Shown: positions 31,566-42,248 of the stretch, one piece after another
Layout of the letters: every line of letters starts with the position of its first letter
Position numbering within the stretch: position 1 is the first letter of the stretch
NCBI GenBank assembly: GCA_029907315.1
Contig: JARYME010000013.1
Coordinates: 1-42,912 of the forward strand
DNA length: 42,912 bases
From: Armatimonadota bacterium
GTDB taxonomy: Bacteria; Armatimonadota; UBA5829
Reading direction: 5' to 3'
Position numbers and translations under genes: made by a program
Notes under the pieces: generated by a model
Databases searched by the model: none
What the model saw: the letters and a program-made list of their open reading frames with translations, nothing else
Told to the model about the DNA's origin: nothing

Positions 31566-32597
31566 CTACTTCCCCATCAACTTCTCGACGATGTAGAGTT
31601 CCAATGTCTCGTAATCGCGTTTCGCTCTTAGCTCCTCGATAAATGACGTGTCAAGAGACCTTGCAACTTCTAGCAGGTGCTCAAAGATGCGCTTTGAATT
31701 GATCAGATGCTGATAACGCTTTTCAGCCGTCGTTGTGCGCAACGCCTTGACATCGAAACCAATCATCTCACCATTTGTTCCGTAGCCGTACCTATCGAGA
31801 ACCCAAACTTGGTTGAAGGCACTTCGCAAATTTACCGAACCGAACGCTTTATCCTCGTCGAACTTGAGCCCATTCTGGTCATTCAGATGCACTGCCCATA
31901 ACTTCTTGTGCCAGAGTGCAAACGCCATTTCATCCGACGGATCAAGACCAGCCAGTATCACGTGAGCGCTTTCGATATTCACACCCACCCTAGCCGGGTC
32001 GATTGTCTTGTATGCCAAGGCGATGAAGTGGCCTGCCGTTGGATTATAAGCGTGATCCATAGGCTCGTTGGGCTTCATCTCACCAATTATGCGAATATCC
32101 TTGTCATAGTCTAGAAGCGCATTGATGTAGTCGACACAGCGTTGCGTAGCGGTTACAGGATCCTTTGCTTCTCGGATATACGTTCCTTCACGAGCGGGCC
32201 AAAGGACGATGTTCTTTGTGCCAATCATGTGAGCTATATCGATTGCCCGCTTGGATCTCTCCAAAGCGTATTTTCTCATTTCGGGGTCGTTGGAAGTGTA
32301 GCCGCCGTCTATTGTGTTCGGATGCTCCCAAAGCCTCGGAGCCACGAACTCGGCGACCATGCCGTGGTCGTCTAGAAGCTTTTTGATTTGAGAAGCAACT
32401 TTTTGGGTGGTTGCCGCGTCGGCATCAGCAGCCACCACGTCGTCATCGTGGAACTGAACCCCGTCGTAACCAATCTCTTTGAGCTTTGCCACTTTTTCAG
32501 CAAGCTCCAATTCGTCGCGGACCGGCGGTCCAAAGGGATCAGCGCCGGTATGTATGTTCCAAGGTCCCGCAGTGTACTTGTACTTATGACCTCCCAT
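31566..32597 (-). CDS. xylA: Xylose isomerase family protein
   Basis: Predicted metal-dependent interconversion of D-xylose and D-xylulose (or another aldose/ketose pair). The 343 residues follow class I xylose isomerase: DGVQFHDDDVV (catalytic His), GEMKPNEPMDHAY (metal Glu and catalytic Lys), GVNIESAHVILAG (Glu and His), FDEDKAFGSVNLRSAF (two Asp) and GFDVKALRTT (last Asp). The segment VHLNDQNGLKFDEDKAFG has His where family members usually have the metal-binding Asp of DLNGQ, so activity may be altered. The ATG at 32597 follows AGGAGG by 6 nt and is preferred to a frame opening at 32618. It is divergent from the trp operon, with overlapping -35 elements. No xylulokinase gene is in the window. 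Confidence 0.85.
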   Translation of the reverse strand: MGGHKYKYTAGPWNIHTGADPFGPPVRDELELAEKVAKLKEIGYDGVQFHDDDVVAADADAATTQKVASQIKKLLDDHGMVAEFVAPRLWEHPNTIDGGYTSNDPEMRKYALERSKRAIDIAHMIGTKNIVLWPAREGTYIREAKDPVTATQRCVDYINALLDYDKDIRIIGEMKPNEPMDHAYNPTAGHFIALAYKTIDPARVGVNIESAHVILAGLDPSDEMAFALWHKKLWAVHLNDQNGLKFDEDKAFGSVNLRSAFNQVWVLDRYGYGTNGEMIGFDVKALRTTTAEKRYQHLINSKRIFEHLLEVARSLDTSFIEELRAKRDYETLELYIVEKLMGK

Positions 32598-32642
32598 TTC
32601 CAACCTCCTGTAACACATCCAGAATGCGGTGTTAGAACCCGG

Positions 32643-32692: not shown

Positions 32693-32721
32693 ACTACAGT
32701 TGTCCCTTCAGCACTTGACAA
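32693..32721 (-). promoter_or_regulatory. Promoter of xylA
   Basis: Reverse strand TTGTCA (32721-32716), 17-bp spacer, TGTAGT (32698-32693). Its -35 element overlaps that of the trp promoter, so polymerases on the two strands should compete. Confidence 0.5.
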
Positions 32722-32743
32722 CGCGGCTGCTGTTGGGTACACT
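32715..32743 (+). promoter_or_regulatory. Promoter of the trp operon
   Basis: Perfect TTGACA (32715-32720), 17-bp spacer, TACACT (32738-32743). The predicted start near 32750 is only a few bases before the leader-peptide ATG at 32754 and about 300 nt before trpS. Confidence 0.75.
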
Positions 32744-32753
32744 TCAAAATAGA

Positions 32754-32822
32754 ATGAGAACGGCGAGAATCTTGAGCAACCAAAGAGAAAACCTCAAGTG
32801 GGTCTGGCGATGCTCCAATTGA
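32754..32822 (+). CDS. trpL: trp operon leader peptide
   Basis: A 22-codon frame ending KWVWRCSN: tryptophan codons at 32799-32801 and 32805-32807, with one Val between. The second Trp codon abuts the 5' arm of the hairpin at 32806-32834, and the UGA stop falls in that hairpin's loop, as expected for a ribosome-stalling leader peptide. No Shine-Dalgarno sequence precedes the ATG, and the predicted transcript begins only about four bases upstream, so it may be read as a nearly leaderless message. Two near-adjacent Trp codons in 22, directly before a terminator in front of trpS-trpE, are hard to explain by chance. The peptide itself probably has no function beyond stalling. Confidence 0.75.
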   Translation: MRTARILSNQRENLKWVWRCSN

Positions 32823-32913
32823 AGTGGAGTCGCCGGGCCGAGTTTGCACGCTAGTTATTCGACATAAGATAATATGGCCGCGGAGACTCCACCGGATGGC
32901 TCCGCGGCCTTTT
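32804..32913 (+). promoter_or_regulatory. Ribosome-mediated trp attenuator (1:2, 2:3 and 3:4 structures)
   Basis: Segment 1 (32806-32817) pairs with segment 2 (32825-32834): GGCGA with TCGCC and CTCCA with TGGAG. Segment 2 can instead pair with segment 3: 32824-32831 with 32885-32892 (GTGGAGTC with GACTCCAC), then 32833-32835 with 32881-32883, then 32837-32839 with 32877-32879. That is 14 pairs with two single mismatches. Segment 3 (32876-32885) otherwise pairs with segment 4 (32900-32909) to form the terminator. A ribosome stalled on the Trp codons at 32799-32807 would cover segment 1, free segment 2 and prevent termination. Rapid translation allows 1:2 and 3:4. This is the classical trp attenuation logic. 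Confidence 0.8.
32876..32913 (+). terminator. Attenuator terminator of the trp leader
   Basis: Perfect 10-bp stem GGCCGCGGAG/CTCCGCGGCC with a 14-base loop that can add an inner CCA/TGG stem, followed directly by TTTTGTT. A strong factor-independent terminator, about 140 nt before trpS. Confidence 0.88.
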
Positions 32914-32939
32914 GTTGATCCAGGATTCCTGGAAAACCA

Positions 32940-32978
32940 AAAGGCCAAGGATAAAATGTGCAACTATCCTTGGCCTTT
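32940..32978. terminator. Second strong hairpin between attenuator and trpS
   Basis: Perfect 14-bp arms AAAGGCCAAGGATA and TATCCTTGGCCTTT with an 11-base loop. Rightward it is followed by TTTAT only. Leftward its stem continues into TTTTGGTTTT, so it is a better terminator for the reverse strand, although no leftward gene ends here. A smaller TCCAGG-ATT-CCTGGA repeat (32919-32933) lies between it and the attenuator. Confidence 0.55.
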
Positions 32979-33050
32979 ATGCATAGTTGACCAGAATTAA
33001 TAATACCGCACAAGTTGCATAAGCATCCGGTATATTCTGGAGGGATTATT

Positions 33051-34061
33051 ATGGAGATGAAAAAGAGAATACTGACAGGAGACCGCCCAACCGGAAAACT
33101 GCATCTCGGGCATTACGTCGGCAGCCTGCGAAACAGAGTCAAGCTGCAGTATGACTATGATACTTTCCTCATCATAGCCGACGTGCAGGCACTCACGACA
33201 AACTGGGAGCACCCTGAGAGGCTGGCGCAGGACGTCCGCGACGTGGCCACAGACTACCTCGCGGCGGGCATTGACCCCGAGGTAGCCACCATATTCATAC
33301 AGTCAATGGTCCCTGCCATAGCAGAGCTCACGATTTTCTACTCGATGTTTGTGCCTGTAAACGTGCTGAGACACAACCCCACCATAAAGACAGAAGCAAA
33401 GCAGAAGGGCTACAGTGAACTGATGTACGGGTTCCTGGGATATCCGATCAGTCAGGCAGCGGACATTACATTCTGTAAAGCTCATTTGGTACCAGTCGGC
33501 AAGGACCAAGCGCCACATCTGGAGCTCACGCGCAAGATCGTGAGGAGATTCAATGAACTCTACGGTGAGGTACTTGTGGAGCCGGAAGGAATGTACGAGA
33601 AGCTACTGGTCGGTCTCGACGGCAACACAAAGATGTCGAAGAGCTTGGATAACGCGATATACCTTGCCGATCCGCCGGAGGAGGTTGTTCGGAAGGTGCG
33701 AATGGCGGTGACTGATCCAGCTCGAATTCACAAGAATGATCCAGGTCACCCGCATGTGTGCACAGTGTTCAAATATCACAGCGAGTTCAACCAAGAATTC
33801 GTACCCGAGTTGGAGCGCGCCTGCAAGAAGGGAGAAATCGGATGCGTGGAATGCAAAAACCGATTGGCGGCTCGCCTGAACGAGATGCTCGAACCAATCC
33901 GTGAGAGACGAGCTTACTATGAAGCGAGACAGGACTTGGTAGACGACATTTTGCAAGCTGGAACCGCCCGCGCTGTCGAGGTAGGAGAGCAGACGTTGGC
34001 CGAAGTCAAGGACGCTATGAAATGCAACTATTTCGCACGGGAGTCTGTCAGACGCGGATGA
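33051..34061 (+). CDS. trpS: Tryptophanyl-tRNA synthetase
   Basis: Charges tRNA-Trp with tryptophan. The 336-residue class I synthetase has the HIGH-equivalent in GDRPTGKLHLGHYVGSL, the KMSKS loop in GNTKMSKSLDNAIYL, and VGKDQAPHLELTR in between. The ATG at 33051 follows GGAGG by 7 nt; an upstream in-frame ATG at 33015 lacks a site. It is the first structural gene behind the attenuator, so the charging enzyme and the synthesis genes share one Trp-sensing leader. Its TGA overlaps the trpE start in ATGA. Confidence 0.96.
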   Translation: MEMKKRILTGDRPTGKLHLGHYVGSLRNRVKLQYDYDTFLIIADVQALTTNWEHPERLAQDVRDVATDYLAAGIDPEVATIFIQSMVPAIAELTIFYSMFVPVNVLRHNPTIKTEAKQKGYSELMYGFLGYPISQAADITFCKAHLVPVGKDQAPHLELTRKIVRRFNELYGEVLVEPEGMYEKLLVGLDGNTKMSKSLDNAIYLADPPEEVVRKVRMAVTDPARIHKNDPGHPHVCTVFKYHSEFNQEFVPELERACKKGEIGCVECKNRLAARLNEMLEPIRERRAYYEARQDLVDDILQAGTARAVEVGEQTLAEVKDAMKCNYFARESVRRG

Positions 34062-35599
34062 TGAACTACTATCCGGACAAAACTGAATTCAAGCGCCGCG
34101 CCAGACAAGGCGATCTGACGCCGGTGTACGCTGAGATACTTGCCGACATGGAAACGCCCGTCTCAGCGTTCAGGAAGATAACCAGAACCGGAAGAGGCGG
34201 CGGACAGGACAACAAAGGAAAGGGCTTGTACGAAGCGCCTAAGTACGCTTTTTTGTTGGAAAGCGTGGAAGGCGGAGAGCGCATAGCCAGATACTCATTC
34301 CTGGGCTGCGGCGCAGACCGGGTGATAAAGACCAAGAGCAACCTGATCGAACTGACGCGCGACGGCGAAACCCTGGTGCAAGAACTTCTGCCAGGGCAAG
34401 ACCCTCTAGATGTATTGAAATCTGAGCTGCACCGCCTGCGCTATGTTGCTGACCCTGATCTACCCAGATTCTGCGGTGGGGCAGTCGGCTTTATCGGATA
34501 CGATATGGTGCGTTTCTTCGAGAAACTTCCGGATAACGCCGTTGACGACCTAAACTTGCCGGACTGCTTTTTTGTTTTTACCGACACGCTGCTCATTTTC
34601 GACCACGTCAAACACAGGATACGTGTAGTTTGCAATGCCCGAGTTGGAAACGACCCCGACAAGTCGTACGATGAAGCCGTTGCAAAGATAGACTCGGTGG
34701 TGCAGTTACTTACAGAACCCATCGTGCCGTCAGAAAGCCGCTCGCAAGTAGCTGCCAGCCCCATCAGCAGCAACTTTACTAGACAAGACTTCGAGCGCGC
34801 GGTTCGCAAGTGCAAAGATTATATAGCTGCGGGCGACGCTATACAGATCGTTTTGTCGCAGCGATTCAAAACCGACGTGCTGGCCGACTCATTCGACGTT
34901 TACAGAGCACTCAGAAGCCTAAACCCGTCGCCCTATATGTACTATCTCAACTATGACAACATCACGCTGATCGGCTCGTCCCCCGAAATCCTTGTAACGG
35001 AAGAGCGGGGCAAGGTGACCGTTCGACCTATTGCCGGGACTCGCCGACGTGGACTCACTGAAGAAGAAGACAAACAGCTGGAACAAGAGCTGCTCAGAGA
35101 CGAAAAGGAACTGGCTGAACACATCATGCTGGTGGACCTTGGAAGAAACGATATCGGCAGAGTTTGCCAATATGGAAGCGTGCAGGTAACTGAGCTTATG
35201 ACCATTGAGCGCTACTCTCACGTGATGCACATAGTGTCGAACGTGGTCGGCCGACTGCGCGTTGACGCTGATCAATTCGACCTGCTTCGTGCCTGCTTTC
35301 CGGCTGGAACGGTCTCCGGTGCCCCCAAGGTGCGAGCGATGGAGATTATCGACGAACTTGAGCCCACCCGCCGAGGTGTGTATGCCGGATGTACAGGCTA
35401 CTTTAGCTACTCCGGCGACATGGACATGTGTATAACTATTAGGACAATTCTTATGCTGGGTAATACAGCTTACGTGCAGGCTGGTGCGGGTATAGTGGCC
35501 GATTCGGACCCGGCTCGAGAATACGATGAAACAGTAAACAAGGCAATGGCGTTGACAAAGGCTATAGAGTTAGCTCAACTAGGGCTCAGCTCACGCTAG
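34058..35599 (+). CDS. trpE: Anthranilate synthase component I
   Basis: With TrpG, makes anthranilate from chorismate, the first committed step to tryptophan. The 513 residues include YAFLLESVEGGERIARYSFLG, whose LLES is the tryptophan feedback-binding motif. They also include IQIVLSQRF, PSPYMYYLNYDNITLIGSSPEILV, PIAGTRRRG, LVDLGRNDIGRV, YSHVMHIVSNV and FPAGTVSGAPKVRAMEII, the chorismate site. Length is normal. The start ATG at 34058 overlaps the trpS stop. Confidence 0.97.
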   Translation: MMNYYPDKTEFKRRARQGDLTPVYAEILADMETPVSAFRKITRTGRGGGQDNKGKGLYEAPKYAFLLESVEGGERIARYSFLGCGADRVIKTKSNLIELTRDGETLVQELLPGQDPLDVLKSELHRLRYVADPDLPRFCGGAVGFIGYDMVRFFEKLPDNAVDDLNLPDCFFVFTDTLLIFDHVKHRIRVVCNARVGNDPDKSYDEAVAKIDSVVQLLTEPIVPSESRSQVAASPISSNFTRQDFERAVRKCKDYIAAGDAIQIVLSQRFKTDVLADSFDVYRALRSLNPSPYMYYLNYDNITLIGSSPEILVTEERGKVTVRPIAGTRRRGLTEEEDKQLEQELLRDEKELAEHIMLVDLGRNDIGRVCQYGSVQVTELMTIERYSHVMHIVSNVVGRLRVDADQFDLLRACFPAGTVSGAPKVRAMEIIDELEPTRRGVYAGCTGYFSYSGDMDMCITIRTILMLGNTAYVQAGAGIVADSDPAREYDETVNKAMALTKAIELAQLGLSSR

Positions 35600-35628
35600 A
35601 GACCAAAGGGCCAGAGGGATCTTAGACG

Positions 35629-36204
35629 ATGATAGTCGTAATCGACAACTACGACAGTTTTACCTACAACCTGGTGCAGTATTTAGGCGAGCTGGGAGAA
35701 GAAATCTCAGTATTCAGAAATGACAAGGTTGGCATATCAGACATAGAACAACTCAAGCCGAGTCACATAGTCATTTCCCCCGGGCCTTGTACTCCGAACG
35801 AAGCAGGCATATCAATCGAGGTAATCCGGCACTTTGCGGGAAAAATCCCTATACTCGGTGTATGTCTAGGACACCAATGTATTGGTCAAGCATTCGGTGG
35901 AGAAATCATCAGAGCTCCACGCCTGATGCACGGAAAGACATCACTTATCTACCACGACGGAAAAGGTATATTCCGAGGGCTTTCAAATCCATTCGAAGCT
36001 ACGCGCTACCATTCTCTCATTGTCCGAAGAGAAACACTTCCGGAATGTCTGAAGGTGACCGCGGAAACCGACCAGCGCGAGATCATGGGCTTGAGGCATC
36101 GGGATTACCCTATCGAAGGAGTGCAATTCCACCCGGAATCGATTCTCACGAGGGAGGGCAAGAGGCTACTGGCTAACTTCATCGGCAGGCCACTGGAGCC
36201 ATAA
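35629..36204 (+). CDS. trpG: Anthranilate synthase component II (glutamine amidotransferase)
   Basis: Supplies ammonia from glutamine to TrpE; in many bacteria the same protein also serves folate synthesis with PabB. The 191 residues begin [20 protein letters not shown]. They carry the oxyanion motif [12 protein letters not shown], the nucleophile Cys in [18 protein letters not shown], and the His-Glu pair in [13 protein letters not shown]. The catalytic triad is complete. It lies 29 nt behind trpE with GAGGG upstream. Confidence 0.97.
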
Positions 36205-36248
36205 ACCTATACGGCGATTCAGAGACTTCCAGAACACGGTGATCAAAA

Positions 36249-37271
36249 GTGATTCGTGAGGCCATCAAGAAGCTAGTCGAAAAAGAAAACCTAACGCAAA
36301 CCGAAGCAGCAGCCGTAATGAGGCAGATCATGGAAGGCGAAGCCACGGCGGCCCAGATCGCTTCGTTTCTCACTGCGCTGCGCATGAAGGGAGAAACGGT
36401 GGAAGAAATCATCGGTTTCGCAGAGGTAATGCGTGAAAAGGCCGTCAAAGTCCGGCCCAAGTCAAAAGATCTGTTGGATACTTGCGGCACAGGTGGCGAC
36501 AAGCTCAACACTTTCAACATATCAACCACGGCTATGTTCGTTGCTGCCGGCGCGGGGATAAACGTTGCCAAACATGGAAATAGGGCTGCATCAAGCACCT
36601 GCGGAAGCGCAGACGTCCTTGAAGCACTCGGGGTAAACCTAAACCTATCGCCGGAACAGGTAGCTATGTGCATCGATTCAATTGGTATCGGCTTTATGTT
36701 TGCACCAGCGATGCATCCCGCGATGAAGTATGCGATAGGTCCTCGCAAAGAGATCGGTATTCGCACTGTGTTCAATGTCCTTGGACCTCTAACCAATCCC
36801 GCTGGCGCCGAGAGACAAATTATCGGAGTATTTGCTCCGGAATGGACCGAACCGCTGGCAGAAGTGCTTGCACATCTGGGCTCAAAACGCGCGATGGTTT
36901 TCCACGGCATTGCGGGTCTGGACGAAATATCTACGCTGGGAGAAACAAAGGTGAGCGAGCTTGTTGACGGAACGGTTCGCACTTACACTCTGGTGCCAGA
37001 AGACGCTGGTTTAAGTAGAGCGGAGCCGGATTCGTTGGCTCCTGAGTCAGGACAAGTAAGCGGAAACGTGCAAGCTCTTCTCGAAGTACTAAATGGCAAG
37101 AAGGGACCCAAAAGGGATATAGTACTTATGAACGCGGCAGCCGCTCTGGTAGTAGCCGAAAAGGCTGAGAATCTGCGCGAAGGCGTGGAACTTGCTCTTC
37201 GCAGCATCGACTCAGGAGCGGCAAGACAAAAGCTAGAGGATCTCAGGGACTTTTCGCAGAGGCTTGGGTGA
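36249..37271 (+). CDS. trpD: Anthranilate phosphoribosyltransferase
   Basis: Joins anthranilate to PRPP. The 340 residues have the helical N-terminal bundle (LTQTEAAAVMRQIMEGEAT), the PRPP-binding DTCGTGGDKLNTFNIST, KHGNRAASSTCGSADVLEALG and GIGFMFAPAMHPAMKY, then RTVFNVLGPLTNPAGA; all are standard. It starts with GTG at 36249 behind a weak GGTGA, 44 nt after trpG. The stop overlaps or adjoins the trpC start. Confidence 0.97.
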   Translation: MIREAIKKLVEKENLTQTEAAAVMRQIMEGEATAAQIASFLTALRMKGETVEEIIGFAEVMREKAVKVRPKSKDLLDTCGTGGDKLNTFNISTTAMFVAAGAGINVAKHGNRAASSTCGSADVLEALGVNLNLSPEQVAMCIDSIGIGFMFAPAMHPAMKYAIGPRKEIGIRTVFNVLGPLTNPAGAERQIIGVFAPEWTEPLAEVLAHLGSKRAMVFHGIAGLDEISTLGETKVSELVDGTVRTYTLVPEDAGLSRAEPDSLAPESGQVSGNVQALLEVLNGKKGPKRDIVLMNAAAALVVAEKAENLREGVELALRSIDSGAARQKLEDLRDFSQRLG

Positions 37272-37272
37272 A

Positions 37273-38052
37273 TTGATTCTAGAAAGGATTCTGCAAGCAA
37301 AACGACGAGAGGTTGTATGTCGAAAATCGGAGATCGCGGTCGGCGAGCTGAAATCGCGAATGTGGGACGCGCCACCTCCGCTGGACTTTGCCAAACGCCT
37401 TGTGAGAGATTCTGGTGGCATCCCTGCTGTGATAGCGGAGATAAAGCGGGCATCGCCGTCGAAAGGATCTATTCGGCCCAACCTGGATCCGGCCCAGACC
37501 GCTATTAGCTACGAAGCATCGGGAGCAGCCGCAGTTTCAGTATTAACGGATGAGCAGTTCTTCCGTGGTTCGCTGCAAGATTTGAAAGCGATAAAAGAGT
37601 CCGTTCGGATCCCTGTGCTCCGGAAAGATTTCATCTTGGATGAATACCAGGTATATGAGTCGCGAGCTGCAGGAGCAGATGCTATTCTTCTAATAGCCGC
37701 AGCTCTTGATCAAGAGACGCTGAAGCGTCTTATGAACCTGGCCTCAGAGATTGGACTACAGTACATCGTGGAAGTTCACAACGAATCAGAACTTCAGACT
37801 GCAATTGAGGTTGGAGCACCGATTATAGGCATAAACAATCGTGACCTTCGCACGTTTGAAGTCTCGTTGGACGTGACAGCTCGCCTGCTGCCGATGATAC
37901 CCCGCGCAAGAAAGATCAGTGAAAGCGGTATTTCATCGCGCCACGATCTTGAGTATCTCGGAAGTCTAGGTGCGGATGCAGTATTGATAGGCGAAGCCCT
38001 AATGGTTCATGCAGACCCAGCGGAAAAGTTAAGGGAACTGTTGTCGCCATGA
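37273..38052 (+). CDS. trpC: Indole-3-glycerol phosphate synthase
   Basis: Closes the indole ring from CdRP. The 259 residues have AEIKRASPSKGSIRPNLDP, SVLTDEQFFRGSLQDLKAIK, PVLRKDFILDEYQVYESRAAGAD, INNRDLRTFEVSLD and SESGISSRHDL, all conserved in TrpC. The TTG at 37273 gives the family-like start ILERILQAKRREVV; another TTG at 37264 inside the trpD end is possible. It overlaps trpF in ATGA. Confidence 0.96.
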   Translation: MILERILQAKRREVVCRKSEIAVGELKSRMWDAPPPLDFAKRLVRDSGGIPAVIAEIKRASPSKGSIRPNLDPAQTAISYEASGAAAVSVLTDEQFFRGSLQDLKAIKESVRIPVLRKDFILDEYQVYESRAAGADAILLIAAALDQETLKRLMNLASEIGLQYIVEVHNESELQTAIEVGAPIIGINNRDLRTFEVSLDVTARLLPMIPRARKISESGISSRHDLEYLGSLGADAVLIGEALMVHADPAEKLRELLSP

Positions 38053-38675
38053 CCCTCATCAAAATCTGCGGCATAACAAACGTGCAGGACGCACTTGCGG
38101 CGGTCGAACTGGGTGCTCATTTTCTGGGTTTCGTCTTTTCGGAAAGTCCGCGAAGGGCCGAACCGTCGACCGTAAAACACATTCGACGCATAATCGGAGG
38201 CGACGCTAAGATTGTAGGCGTATTCACAGAAGAAGCAAACTGGGTGATTGAAACGATAGAATCTTGTGAGTTGGACTTCGCTCAGCTTCACGGGAACCAA
38301 AGTGAAGAGTTTGCACAGCGCATCGGGCCTGAACGTGTGATAAGAGCTGTGAGGGTGAAAAGTGAGCGGACGATTGCGAATCTCGAGCTCTTTCCGAATG
38401 CTGCATTTTACTTGCTTGACTCATATCGCGAGGGATTAGCGGGCGGCACGGGAGAGACGTTTGACTGGGATCTCGCAGTAAAGGCGAAGGTACACGGAAA
38501 ACCGATAGTGCTCTCAGGGGGATTAAACCCCGCTAACGTATACAAGGCGGTCATGCAGGTTCGACCGTTCGCAGTAGACGTTGCCAGCGGCGTAGAAGAA
38601 AGTCCCGGCAAGAAGGATCGCGACAAAATGAAGGAGTTCATCGACAATGTCAAGAGAGCAGACGCAAGTTCCTGA
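38049..38675 (+). CDS. trpF: Phosphoribosylanthranilate isomerase
   Basis: Isomerises PRA to CdRP, the substrate of TrpC. The 208 residues start [22 protein letters not shown] with the catalytic Cys in KICGIT. They continue with [44 protein letters not shown] and the catalytic Asp in [17 protein letters not shown]. It is a separate gene, not fused to trpC. It overlaps trpB by 29 bases. Confidence 0.97.
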
Positions 38676-39852
38676 CGCACTTGGGCATTTCGGCCTGTAC
38701 GGAGGCAGATACGTTCCGGAAACGCTGATACCCGCTCTAGAAGAGCTCACCACTGCCTACGAAAAGTACAAGAAAGATCCGGACTTCATCGCAGAGCTGG
38801 AATCCTACCTTCGGGACTATGTGGGTCGCCCCACCCCACTGTACTTTGCAAAACGTCTCACCGAAGAACTTGGTGGCGCAAAGGTCTACCTCAAACGTGA
38901 AGACTTGTGCCATACGGGTGCGCACAAGCTCAACAACGTTATGGGGCAAATACTGCTAGCTCGGCGAATGGGCAAGCCAAGGATAATCGCTGAAACTGGA
39001 GCCGGGCAGCATGGCGTTGCCACAGCCACAGCGTGTGCTTTGTTCGGTCTGAAGTGCTGCGTCTATATGGGCACCGAAGACATGGAAAGGCAAGCTCTGA
39101 ATGTGTTTCGTATGAGACTCCTGGGGGCGGAGGTGATACCCGTGGACTCCGGAACACGCACTTTGAAAGATGCGACCAGCGAAGCAATCCGAGACTGGGT
39201 AACGAACGTACGCGACACGCATTATATAATCGGTTCCGTGGTGGGCCCTCATCCATACCCGATGATGGTTCGCGACTTCCAGTCTGTGATTGGACGAGAG
39301 ACCAAAGAGCAAATTCTCAAGCGAGAAGGACGACTGCCGGACTACATTATCGCCTGCGTTGGAGGTGGCTCGAACGCGATGGGAATATTCTATCCGTTCA
39401 TTGATGAGCCGCAGGTGCGATTCATTGGCGTCGAAGCCGCTGGGGAAGGTATTGATACAAACAGACACTGCGCGACACTGGGCAAGGGCAGGCCGGGCGT
39501 ACTGCACGGTTCTATGAGCTACCTTTTGCAGAACGAAGATGGCCAGGTGCAGTTGACACACTCGATTTCGGCAGGCTTAGACTACCCCGGGGTAGGACCT
39601 GAACATAGCTTTCTCAAAGATACGGGGCGGGCAACATACGTAAGCGTTACAGACGCCGAAGCTCTGGACGCATTTTGCTTGCTCTCCAGAGTGGAGGGCA
39701 TTATACCCGCACTTGAACCGGCACATGCCATTGCCTACGCTGCAAAGTTTGTGCCTACGCTTGACAAGGACAAGATAGTAATCATATGCCTATCCGGTCG
39801 AGGAGACAAAGACGTACATACTGCAGCTAAACACTTGGGGGTGTCCTTGTGA
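38647..39852 (+). CDS. trpB: Tryptophan synthase beta chain
   Basis: Condenses indole and serine to tryptophan with PLP. The 401 residues are of the TrpB1 type: [44 protein letters not shown] with the PLP lysine, [17 protein letters not shown], the phosphate-binding [10 protein letters not shown] and [20 protein letters not shown]. The ATG at 38647 lies 10 nt after AAGGAG inside trpF. The stop overlaps the trpA start in GTGA, as usual for the two subunits. Confidence 0.98.
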
Positions 39853-40664
39853 GTTTGACCAGGTTAGAACGAGTTTTCGGTGCTGAAGCACCGTCCAATT
39901 GTCGAATTGGGCGTCCTGCATATCGAAAAGCCCTGATTTGCTTTCTTACTTGTGGCGACCCCGATTTGAACTGCACCATCGACCTTGTAAAAGCAGTCGC
40001 CGCTGCCGGTGCTGACATAGTTGAGTTGGGAATACCTTTTTCAGATCCTTTAGCGGACGGCCCTACCATCCAATCTTCGAGCTACCGAGCACTTCAAGCA
40101 GGAACAACGGTTTCTGATGTGATCAAGTGTGTCGAGGCGATACGAGAAGCTTCGGAAGTGCCGTTGGTATTGATGACATACTTTAACCCCGTATATAACT
40201 ACGGTCTCGAACGGTTTGCGAATGATGCAGCGTCTGCAGGCGCAGATGGGGTAATTATGACAGACCTACCCATAGAGGAAATTGCACAGTGGAAATCTGT
40301 TGCCGACACTGCAGAGCTGGCAACAGTACTGCTGGTTGCGCCAACCAGTACGAAGGAAAGGATAGAACGAATAGCTAAGATGGCGAGTGGGTTCATATAT
40401 TGTGTTTCTAGGACCGGCGTAACCGGGGCTGGAGACACGCTGCCTGGGGAGGTCGTTGAATTAGTAAACCGCACTAAATCGGTAACCGACCTGCCTGTTG
40501 TAGTCGGGTTCGGAATTTCCAAACCTGAACACGTGAATAAAGTTCTGCAGTATGCAGACGGTGCAGTGGTCGGCAGCGCTTTGGTAGACTTGATAGCACG
40601 GCATCATCATACAGGCGATGTGCTTGAACGAGTGTCGGAGTTCGTTCGGTCGCTCAAGGGGTAG
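39849..40664 (+). CDS. trpA: Tryptophan synthase alpha chain
   Basis: Releases indole from indole-glycerol phosphate and channels it to TrpB. The 271 residues include [14 protein letters not shown], the catalytic Glu in [36 protein letters not shown], the Asp in [25 protein letters not shown] and [13 protein letters not shown]. The N-terminus carries about 12 extra residues between the first helix and the first strand ([15 protein letters not shown]) compared with usual TrpA. It starts with GTG. Confidence 0.97.
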
Positions 40665-40670
40665 GTCTGG

Positions 40671-41393
40671 ATGTTCACCAAAGAACAATTCGCTAAGCTG
40701 ATGGATTCTACTCTGCTGAAGCCGACAGCAACAAAAGAAGACATCATAAGGCTGTGCGAAGAAGCAATACACTATCACTTTGCGACGGTAGTTGTATTTC
40801 CGTACTGGCTGCCCCTTGCGCGCCGCGTGCTGCAAGGATCAGATGTGAAGCCTGCGACTGTGGTTGGCTTTCCATTCGGTGCGAACTCTAAAGCGGTCAA
40901 ACTTTACGAGGCCCGGAACGCAGTCAGCAACGGAGCCAAGGAACTGGATGTCGTTATCAACATTTCGGCCCTTAAGTCCGGAGAGCGCGGGGTCGTCGAG
41001 AGCGAGGTTAGAGAGATCGTAGACACTGCCCGGCTTACAGGAATGACCCAGGACGCCAAGGGCACAGTGGTAAAGTTCATTATTGAGTGCTACTACCTCA
41101 CAGACGACGAAAAGAAGATAGCCTGCGAAATCATACGCGATGCGGGAGCCGACTTTGTAAAGACATCAACCGGCACTGCTCCCGGAGGAGCAACAGTAGA
41201 AGATATACGCCTTATAAGAAACATAGTAGGTCCTGATATGGGCGTGAAGGCCGCTGGAGGAATTCGAACTACAGAGCAGGCAATGGAGATGTTGGATGCC
41301 GGTGCCAGCAGGATAGGAACGTCCAGCGCGGCTGCCATTGTTGAGGGATACGTGCCGGAAGACTATCTTGAGAGTGCAGGCAGGCGCAAATAA
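40671..41393 (+). CDS. deoC: Deoxyribose-phosphate aldolase
   Basis: Splits 2-deoxyribose 5-phosphate to glyceraldehyde 3-phosphate and acetaldehyde in deoxynucleoside breakdown. The 240 residues have LMDSTLLKPTATKEDI, VVGFPFGANSKAVKLYEA, the Asp of AKELDVVINI, the Schiff-base Lys in ADFVKTSTGTAPGGAT and the second Lys in GVKAAGGIRT. It begins only 6 nt after trpA, so it is part of the trp transcript although its pathway is unrelated. Confidence 0.96.
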   Translation: MFTKEQFAKLMDSTLLKPTATKEDIIRLCEEAIHYHFATVVVFPYWLPLARRVLQGSDVKPATVVGFPFGANSKAVKLYEARNAVSNGAKELDVVINISALKSGERGVVESEVREIVDTARLTGMTQDAKGTVVKFIIECYYLTDDEKKIACEIIRDAGADFVKTSTGTAPGGATVEDIRLIRNIVGPDMGVKAAGGIRTTEQAMEMLDAGASRIGTSSAAAIVEGYVPEDYLESAGRRK

Positions 41394-41474
41394 CCCGATA
41401 GTTTTAGAAGGCGACTCCGGAATTGTCGTTCGAGTACCCCATAGTGCAGAATGCGATCGGTCTACTCAACCGCG

Positions 41475-42248
41475 ATGAAGACCTACGTTAACCCTGGCAT
41501 CGTTATCCGCAGAATCGACCTCGGCGAGAAGGATAGGATTCTCACCATATATACCAAGGACTATGGAAAGCTGTCAGCTGTAGCGAAAGGCTGCCGAAGA
41601 CCTGGTAGCAAACTGGCTGGACCCAGTGAACCATTCGTCTACAGCAAAATGATGTTCGCTTGCGGCAGAGACCTAGATATTCTAACCCAGGCAGACGTTC
41701 GCGAATCATTCCCCAATATCAGAAGCTGTATAACGACGACTGCGCACGCAATATACTTGCTGGAGCTTATCGATAAGTTCAGTGAAGATAGGCAACCGAA
41801 CGCAGAGCTTTTTGATATTCTCTTGAGTGGTCTGTATATGCTCGAAGGAGGAACCGACCCCGAACTCACGGCGCGTTACTTTGAGCTGCAACTTCTTAGA
41901 ACTCTCGGTTACGAACCTCACTTCGAAGCTTGTTTGCGTTGTGGGAACTTGCCACGATCGGGGCTGGTCGTCTTCAGTCCCTCACTCGGAGGGGTTCAAT
42001 GTCAGCTTTGCGGGGCTCTGCCGAGCGATGGTATGTTGGTACCGGTTGCGCTAATCTCGTACGTCAAAGCCCTCAAAACGGCGGAACCGAATCGCATTCG
42101 TGAACTGCAGTTCCCTGCAGGAGCGCGTCGGGATCTAGCGCGCGTCCTGAAATGGCACATCAGATACCGATTGGACAGCGATTTGAAAAGCACCGCATTC
42201 CTGCGGGAATCACAGTCCAACACAGCACCCCAAGTAAGCCCAAGATGA
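41475..42248 (+). CDS. recO: DNA repair protein RecO
   Basis: Loads RecA on gapped DNA together with RecR. The 257 residues have the N-terminal OB fold (TYVNPGIVIRRIDLGEKDRILTIYTKDYG, then LSAVAKGCRRPGSKLAG), a helical middle and the zinc site CLRCG ... CQLCG. The ATG at 41475 gives the family-like start; an in-frame ATG at 41451 would add eight residues and neither has a clear ribosome binding site. It follows deoC by 81 nt. Confidence 0.93.
   Translation: MKTYVNPGIVIRRIDLGEKDRILTIYTKDYGKLSAVAKGCRRPGSKLAGPSEPFVYSKMMFACGRDLDILTQADVRESFPNIRSCITTTAHAIYLLELIDKFSEDRQPNAELFDILLSGLYMLEGGTDPELTARYFELQLLRTLGYEPHFEACLRCGNLPRSGLVVFSPSLGGVQCQLCGALPSDGMLVPVALISYVKALKTAEPNRIRELQFPAGARRDLARVLKWHIRYRLDSDLKSTAFLRESQSNTAPQVSPR

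Follow-up and report, generated by a model that had tools for sequence, protein, structure and literature searches.

The window analysed here, positions 1 to 42,912 of contig JARYME010000013.1, contains a tryptophan operon, trpS-trpEGDCFBA (NCBIfam matches), followed by deoC and recO. The question it raises is how transcription of this operon is coupled to tryptophan. An earlier note on this DNA, which was right in guessing an Armatimonadota-like lineage since the window belongs to that phylum, had proposed a classical leader-peptide attenuator in front of trpS. The features on which the discussion relies are the following.

32715..32743, + strand: predicted promoter of sigma-70 type, with -35 box TTGACA (32715-32720), a spacer of 17 and -10 box TACACT (32738-32743)
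32754..32822, + strand: leader peptide ORF of 22 codons, MRTARILSNQRENLKWVWRCSN (...WVWR...), from ATG at 32754 (predicted start) to TGA at 32820-32822
32799..32807, + strand: control codons UGG GUC UGG (Trp-Val-Trp), read from the sequence, both TGG being invariant in alignment A5
32801..32817, + strand: segment 1 (fold)
32825..32839, + strand: segment 2, partner of 1 or of 3 (fold, duplex energy, register test)
32876..32892, + strand: segment 3, 5' arm of T1, partner of 2 or 4 (fold, comparison)
32900..32914, + strand: segment 4, 3' arm of T1 and its U-run, partner of 3 or 5 (fold, comparison)
32876..32913, + strand: T1, the first predicted intrinsic terminator, hairpin 3:4 plus UUUU (-24.1 kcal/mol; double-sided changes)
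32938..32953, + strand: segment 5, A-run and 5' arm of T2 (fold, comparison)
32940..32978, + strand: T2, a second terminator-like hairpin, 5:6, of 14 pairs (-20.5 kcal/mol)
33039..33044, + strand: Shine-Dalgarno sequence GGAGGG of trpS
33051..34061, + strand: trpS, first gene of the controlled operon (TIGR00233, 301 bits)
34022..40664, + strand: trpE, trpG, trpD, trpC, trpF, trpB and trpA (NCBIfam matches), trpE probably starting near 34058

Very probably, charged tRNA-Trp is sensed here by a ribosome-mediated transcription attenuator, which relays the signal from T1 to T2. When Trp-tRNA is ample, the ribosome would clear the W-x-W codons and cover segment 2, unless segment 1 already holds it; with segment 2 occupied, 3:4 (T1) and then 5:6 (T2) would form, and transcription would end before trpS. 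Under a shortage of Trp-tRNA, the ribosome would stall at W-x-W and mask segment 1, segment 2 would pair with segment 3, and T1 would be blocked; the freed segment 4 would then pair with segment 5, T2 would be blocked in turn, and RNA polymerase would read into trpS-trpEGDCFBA. Sequence and comparison support the conserved frame of the ORF, its Trp codons, the helices 1:2, 2:3 and 3:4, the hairpin T2 and the co-varying pairing 4:5; from these parts we infer that ribosomes stall, that T1 and T2 terminate, and that 4:5 acts as the antiterminator of T2.

The leader peptide and the pairing of segments 1 to 4

The promoter of the earlier note, TTGACA-17-TACACT, is indeed present: TTGACA is kept in all 14 leaders of the window's order, and TTGAC is found upstream of the 18 leaders of its class. 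In 11 of the 14 order leaders the -10 box lies only 9-10 bases from the ATG, giving a predicted 5' UTR of about 3-4 nt, and thus leaderless translation is predicted in most of the order; in the window, where the predicted 5' UTR is about 4 nt (32743-32754), the leader ORF would likewise be leaderless or nearly so. The same short spacing occurs in L003, L004, L005, L007, L114, L115, L117-L119 and L121.

The peptide of 22 codons with its Trp-Val-Trp run is confirmed in the window, and relatives retain the Trp codons. Over the 64 leaders described in the next section, every peptide has two or more Trp codons, and these lie in a frame that is open to an upstream ATG and whose translation is predicted, while the other two frames are open in only 7 and 12 leaders; the first codon of the motif, W1, is TGG in 63 leaders, and Trp accounts for 10.8% of all leader-peptide residues. 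Since the covariance models with which the leaders were found already encode the Trp codons in part, the independent evidence lies in the frame and in the linkage to trp genes.

All the parts that had been named downstream of the promoter can be found. The 1:2 helix joins 32801-32817 to 32825-32839, with the UGA in its loop; the 2:3 pairing joins 32824-32840 to 32876-32892; and the T1 hairpin proper spans 32876-32909 and is followed by UUUUG. The minimum free energy of the leader fold has a z-score of -4.1, none of 200 shuffles being as good, and the 2:3 duplex reaches -30.6 kcal/mol against -14.4 +/- 2.8 for shuffled sequences (z = -5.7, 0/500). Pairings 2:3 and 3:4 are mutually exclusive alternatives, with segment 1 overlapping the control codons, as expected of a leader-peptide attenuator. 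Two details of the earlier description need amending: the 5' arm of 1:2 has its first base at the third position of the first Trp codon, not at the second Trp codon, and the stop codon, which is in the loop of 1:2 in the window's genus, is elsewhere in most relatives of the order, where the ORF extends through segment 2.

Comparison of related leaders, which the earlier note named as a check and a possible refutation, comes out in favour of the attenuator. Hairpins 1:2 and 3:4 show double-sided changes among relatives. The 2:3 duplex is better than its shuffles in 17 of the 18 class leaders and is specific to its register, with 86% of pairs kept versus at most 52% when the arms are slid; letter shuffles of the 2:3 columns add no support, because these columns vary little. 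One leader, L010, has no significant 2:3 or 4:5 pairing.

As for the terminator with a U-run that the earlier note saw in 3:4, the hairpin and its UUUU are there. The U-runs of T1 and T2 are however short in the window (UUUUGUUG and UUUAUGCAU), and a simple consensus terminator scan of the region calls neither of the two. An intrinsic terminator with a U-run before the first gene is predicted to be provided by T1, by T2 or by both. This unremarkable scan, together with the fact that chance does produce short ORFs containing two Trp codons, is what could be said for fortuitous terminator-like hairpins next to a chance ORF. The shuffle z-scores, the conservation in 56 genomes, and a repeated linkage to trp genes, an information that is absent from the covariance models, all contradict such a coincidence, whose probability is next to nil: the comparative data already refute it.

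Predicted leaders and other candidate tryptophan sensors across the phylum

Covariance model R1, then model R2, were applied to 291 genomes of the phylum, and the matches were inspected by reading. This procedure yields 64 accepted leaders in 56 of the 291 genomes, distributed over 14 families. The first 13 distant matches of R1 to be read, with E-values from 1e-10 to 1e-5, are all W-x-W leaders, and six of them lie directly before the trpS of another TrpS subfamily. Sixteen low-scoring matches proved false after reading: L203, L204, L208, L210-L213, L215, L217-L219, L247 and L251-L254.

Nearly all of the 64 leaders precede trpS, trpE, trpB or a trpB2-like gene, all of which act in the metabolism of tryptophan, the amino acid to be sensed; three leaders of one genus of family f45 may be exceptions. 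The trp gene is unseen, weak or distant for L184, L209, L232, L236, L257 and L258, in part because contigs end there. In the class, ten loci that begin with trpS and eight that begin with trpE share the same order of parts: TTGAC box, W-x-W-R ORF (FWWR in one), 1:2, T1 and T2. Leaders of the order stand in front of trpS-trpE or of trpE; genomes G254, G255 and G046 have separate leaders before trpS and before trpE; and in family f5 the leader stands before trpS, the trp operon having none.

Some placements are less usual. Four f45 leaders, L174, L175, L179 and L206, precede a trpB2-like gene rather than trpE or trpS, and the contig of L209 ends too early to tell. In genus g156 (L257 at 501-620, L258 and L236), peptides with FAWWW or FTWWW stand before oxidoreductase-like or unidentified genes, two oxidoreductase-like genes following L257. 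The idea that the leader arrived together with the Bacillota-like trpS of the operon was rejected: among 73 relatives of this TrpS outside Armatimonadota, none has a credible W-x-W leader, the three ORFs that passed that filter (L070, L077 and L107) being due to chance.

Could another sensor regulate the operon? No TrpR or TRAP gene is found in 21 genomes of the group, a search in which control genomes gave matches, and Rfam finds no T-box in the window; all three are thereby rejected as regulators of the operon. More generally, no Rfam family reaches its gathering score in the window, and the Trp_leader family has no match there, even among permissive matches. The nearest plausible match below threshold is the trpB motif, RF04312, a riboswitch candidate according to its authors, and it was discarded at 24.7 bits and an E-value of 0.33, against a gathering score of 59.

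This match, and the fact that the hairpins are strong and conserved, are the two arguments for a leader that acts on translation or RNA stability, or whose hairpins bind a protein or a small molecule as a riboswitch does, no ribosome stalling being involved. Such a leader would leave a Trp-codon frame conserved in 64 of 64 cases, and a segment 1 that begins on Trp codons, without a role; moreover the ribosome binding site of trpS lies outside both T1 and T2, and no Rfam family attains its gathering score. We consider it quite improbable, and retain attenuation by a translating ribosome.

T-boxes do occur in the window's own family: in two sister genera, g5 and g6, trpE is directly preceded by a T-box whose specifier is UGG (L261 at 102-353, + strand; L262 at 111-369, + strand; L263 at 269-520, - strand). 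This specifier was identified by eye in the alignment, and the three matches score below the Rfam curated cut-off. Models R1 and R2 detect no W-x-W leader in these two genera, so that the sensor before trpE differs within one family. The genome of the window itself has one T-box-like element on another contig (L264 at 101-434; 82.6 bits, below the curated cut-off), with an apparently non-Trp specifier.

The second hairpin and the proposed coupling of segments 4 and 5

The list of leader parts given as complete in the earlier note does hold every part that it named, but omits a second conserved hairpin, T2, which begins thirty bases past T1. The stretch CAAAAGGCC (32938-32946), within segment 5, is perfectly complementary to GGCCUUUUG (32906-32914), within segment 4. 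The T2 hairpin is found in 18 of 18 class leaders, and in 43 curated leaders from 11 families. All 43 have a 4:5 duplex, with energies from -13 to -33 kcal/mol, and the helix has 12-13 unbroken pairs in several f45 and f42 leaders. The second switch pair of a his-type attenuator, in which 4:5 couples the sensor to the last terminator, 5:6, is thus present as structure in these 43 leaders.

The fit between the two arms of 4:5 was compared with the fit to arms from other families. With one leader for each of the 11 families, partners from the same leader do fit better than cross-family ones, with a median p of 0.0005, which is the floor of this test, and z of about -4. The result was not significant on the first 11 representatives (p 0.07), and became so only once more distant families were added. 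In the order alone, 88% of the 4:5 cells pair, versus at most 56% when the arms are slid, and letter shuffles support the pairing weakly.

There is a rival account, in which the leader is a four-segment classical attenuator that works at T1 only, T2 is a back-up terminator or a hairpin that stabilises the 5' end of the mRNA, and 4:5 is a by-product of the copying of T1. Arms 3 and 5 are indeed alike, and part of the 4:5 complementarity could be a legacy of T2 originating as a duplicate of T1. T2 also appears dispensable: most trpS leaders outside the class lack it, as do the trpE leaders of f13 and f38. Finally, equilibrium favours T2 over 4:5, by a median of 4.8 kcal/mol, so that a relay needs kinetic commitment, or the order of synthesis, to work. 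In classical attenuators, the order of synthesis decides between 2:3 and 3:4.

However, a working terminator without an antiterminator, between the promoter and the operon, would keep the operon shut, and in many relatives only about 30-40 bases separate T2 from the start codon, which leaves no room for a further promoter. Covariation of arms 4 and 5 extends over 11 families, and lineages without a U-run at T1 have retained its hairpin as well as 4:5. Most f43 leaders, L255 (f18) and L007 have no proper U-run at T1 and mostly keep one at T2; this combination is seen in L007, L207, L226 and L255. There, T2 is the only plausible terminator, and 3:4 would only hold or release segment 4. It is thus natural to regard the four-segment account as the less likely one, at something like one chance in a few, and the relay through two terminators as a well-supported prediction. 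The gene adjoining the leader in the window (31566-32618) is divergent, which leaves no obvious role for T2 in dealing with upstream transcription.

The distribution of T2 follows, in part, the regulated gene. T2 was not found in the trpS leaders of f37, f42, f44, f45 and part of f13, and is present in the trpE leaders of f42 and f43. This is compatible with, though no proof of, biosynthesis being shut off more tightly than the synthetase. Exceptions to this rule are the order, f5 and f21, with T2 also before trpS.

A further helix, P0, pairs early codons of the ORF with the linker between segments 2 and 3. Examples are UAUUUGAUA:UAUCAAAUA in L119 and UACCUGA:UCAGGUA in L005; the helix is clearer in these two leaders, and in L180 and L185, than in the window, where it would join about 32759-32785 to 32835-32860 and is weak (z -0.5). 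Over the 64 leaders its shuffle z-score has a mean of -0.7, with a fair number of leaders scoring below -2, and own pairs beat cross-lineage ones (median p 0.0005, z -5.3, 24 groups). P0 is nested with 1:2 and crosses 2:3, and would thus bias the leader towards termination as long as no ribosome has opened the helix.

Taken together, these leaders may form a phylum-wide Trp regulon with a single undescribed RNA architecture: a leaderless or near-leaderless W-x-W leader, a P0 helix that brackets the sensor and that the ribosome would have to open, and a parity relay driving either two serial terminators or a terminator at the last hairpin. We put this forward tentatively, as a conjecture with slightly less than an even chance.

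Known attenuators and the genes of the window

The Armatimonadota leaders resemble trpL of E. coli and other proteobacteria in having a short ORF with clustered Trp codons, the alternatives 1:2, 2:3 and 3:4, and control over tryptophan biosynthesis. They differ in that they usually have W-x-W-R rather than plain WW, have no Rfam gathering match, include a coupled T2 and P0, also stand before trpS and trpB2, and often have an ORF that runs through segment 2. Their near-leaderless ORF, a prediction in the order, recalls the leaderless trpL of Sinorhizobium meliloti, whose ORF starts at the 5' end of the transcript (PMC7298713), although the peptide and the phylum are different. The T-box (RF00230) likewise senses tRNA charging, but by binding the tRNA directly and not through translation.

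A resemblance at the level of logic only links them to the his attenuator of enteric bacteria, with six segments A-F in which A:B, C:D and E:F terminate and B:C and D:E read through (PMC4046918, PMC10989985). The parity logic is the same, and in most f43 leaders, in f18 and in L007 it is likewise the last hairpin alone that carries a proper U-run. Here, however, it is Trp that is sensed, and in most lineages the middle hairpin, T1, also has a U-run, which makes two serial terminators. The word "classical" in the earlier note is only partly right: comparison supports leader-peptide attenuation, and the T2 coupled through 4:5 turns it into a six-segment, his-like device.

Most documented cases of leader-peptide attenuation are from Proteobacteria and Actinobacteria, and a 2010 survey knew of none outside these two phyla before its own Firmicutes cases. 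For Actinobacteria, a 2005 study describes attenuators whose leader peptides carry UGG codons, upstream of trp operons and, for Streptomyces, upstream of trpS2 (PMC1262725); these attenuators belong to a different phylum and differ in sequence, and the relevant passages mention no coupled second terminator. For Armatimonadota, searches of an open-access collection gave no description of trp attenuation, and the similar statement of the earlier note is uncontradicted there.

By occurring in 14 Armatimonadota families, and in front of trpS in addition to biosynthetic genes, these leaders widen the reach of leader-peptide attenuation. The set also contains natural experiments, with four versus six segments, T1 with or without a U-run, and a T-box swap inside one family: such variation makes the gain of a second terminator and the replacement of a sensor testable.

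In the window's genus, the only TrpS found is predicted to be controlled by a sensor of its own charging activity. A single TrpS, that of the operon, is found in the window's genome and likewise in G002, a second match in each being weak and resembling another synthetase. The operon-type TrpS (33051-34061) is 72% identical to the TrpS of Moorella in an alignment-based scan, about 48% identical to the second TrpS of related genomes, and the sole TrpS in genus g1, which suggests a gene transfer followed by replacement. At the other end of the operon, deoC and recO lie closely 3' of trpA on the same strand (40671-42248), and may be transcribed together with it.
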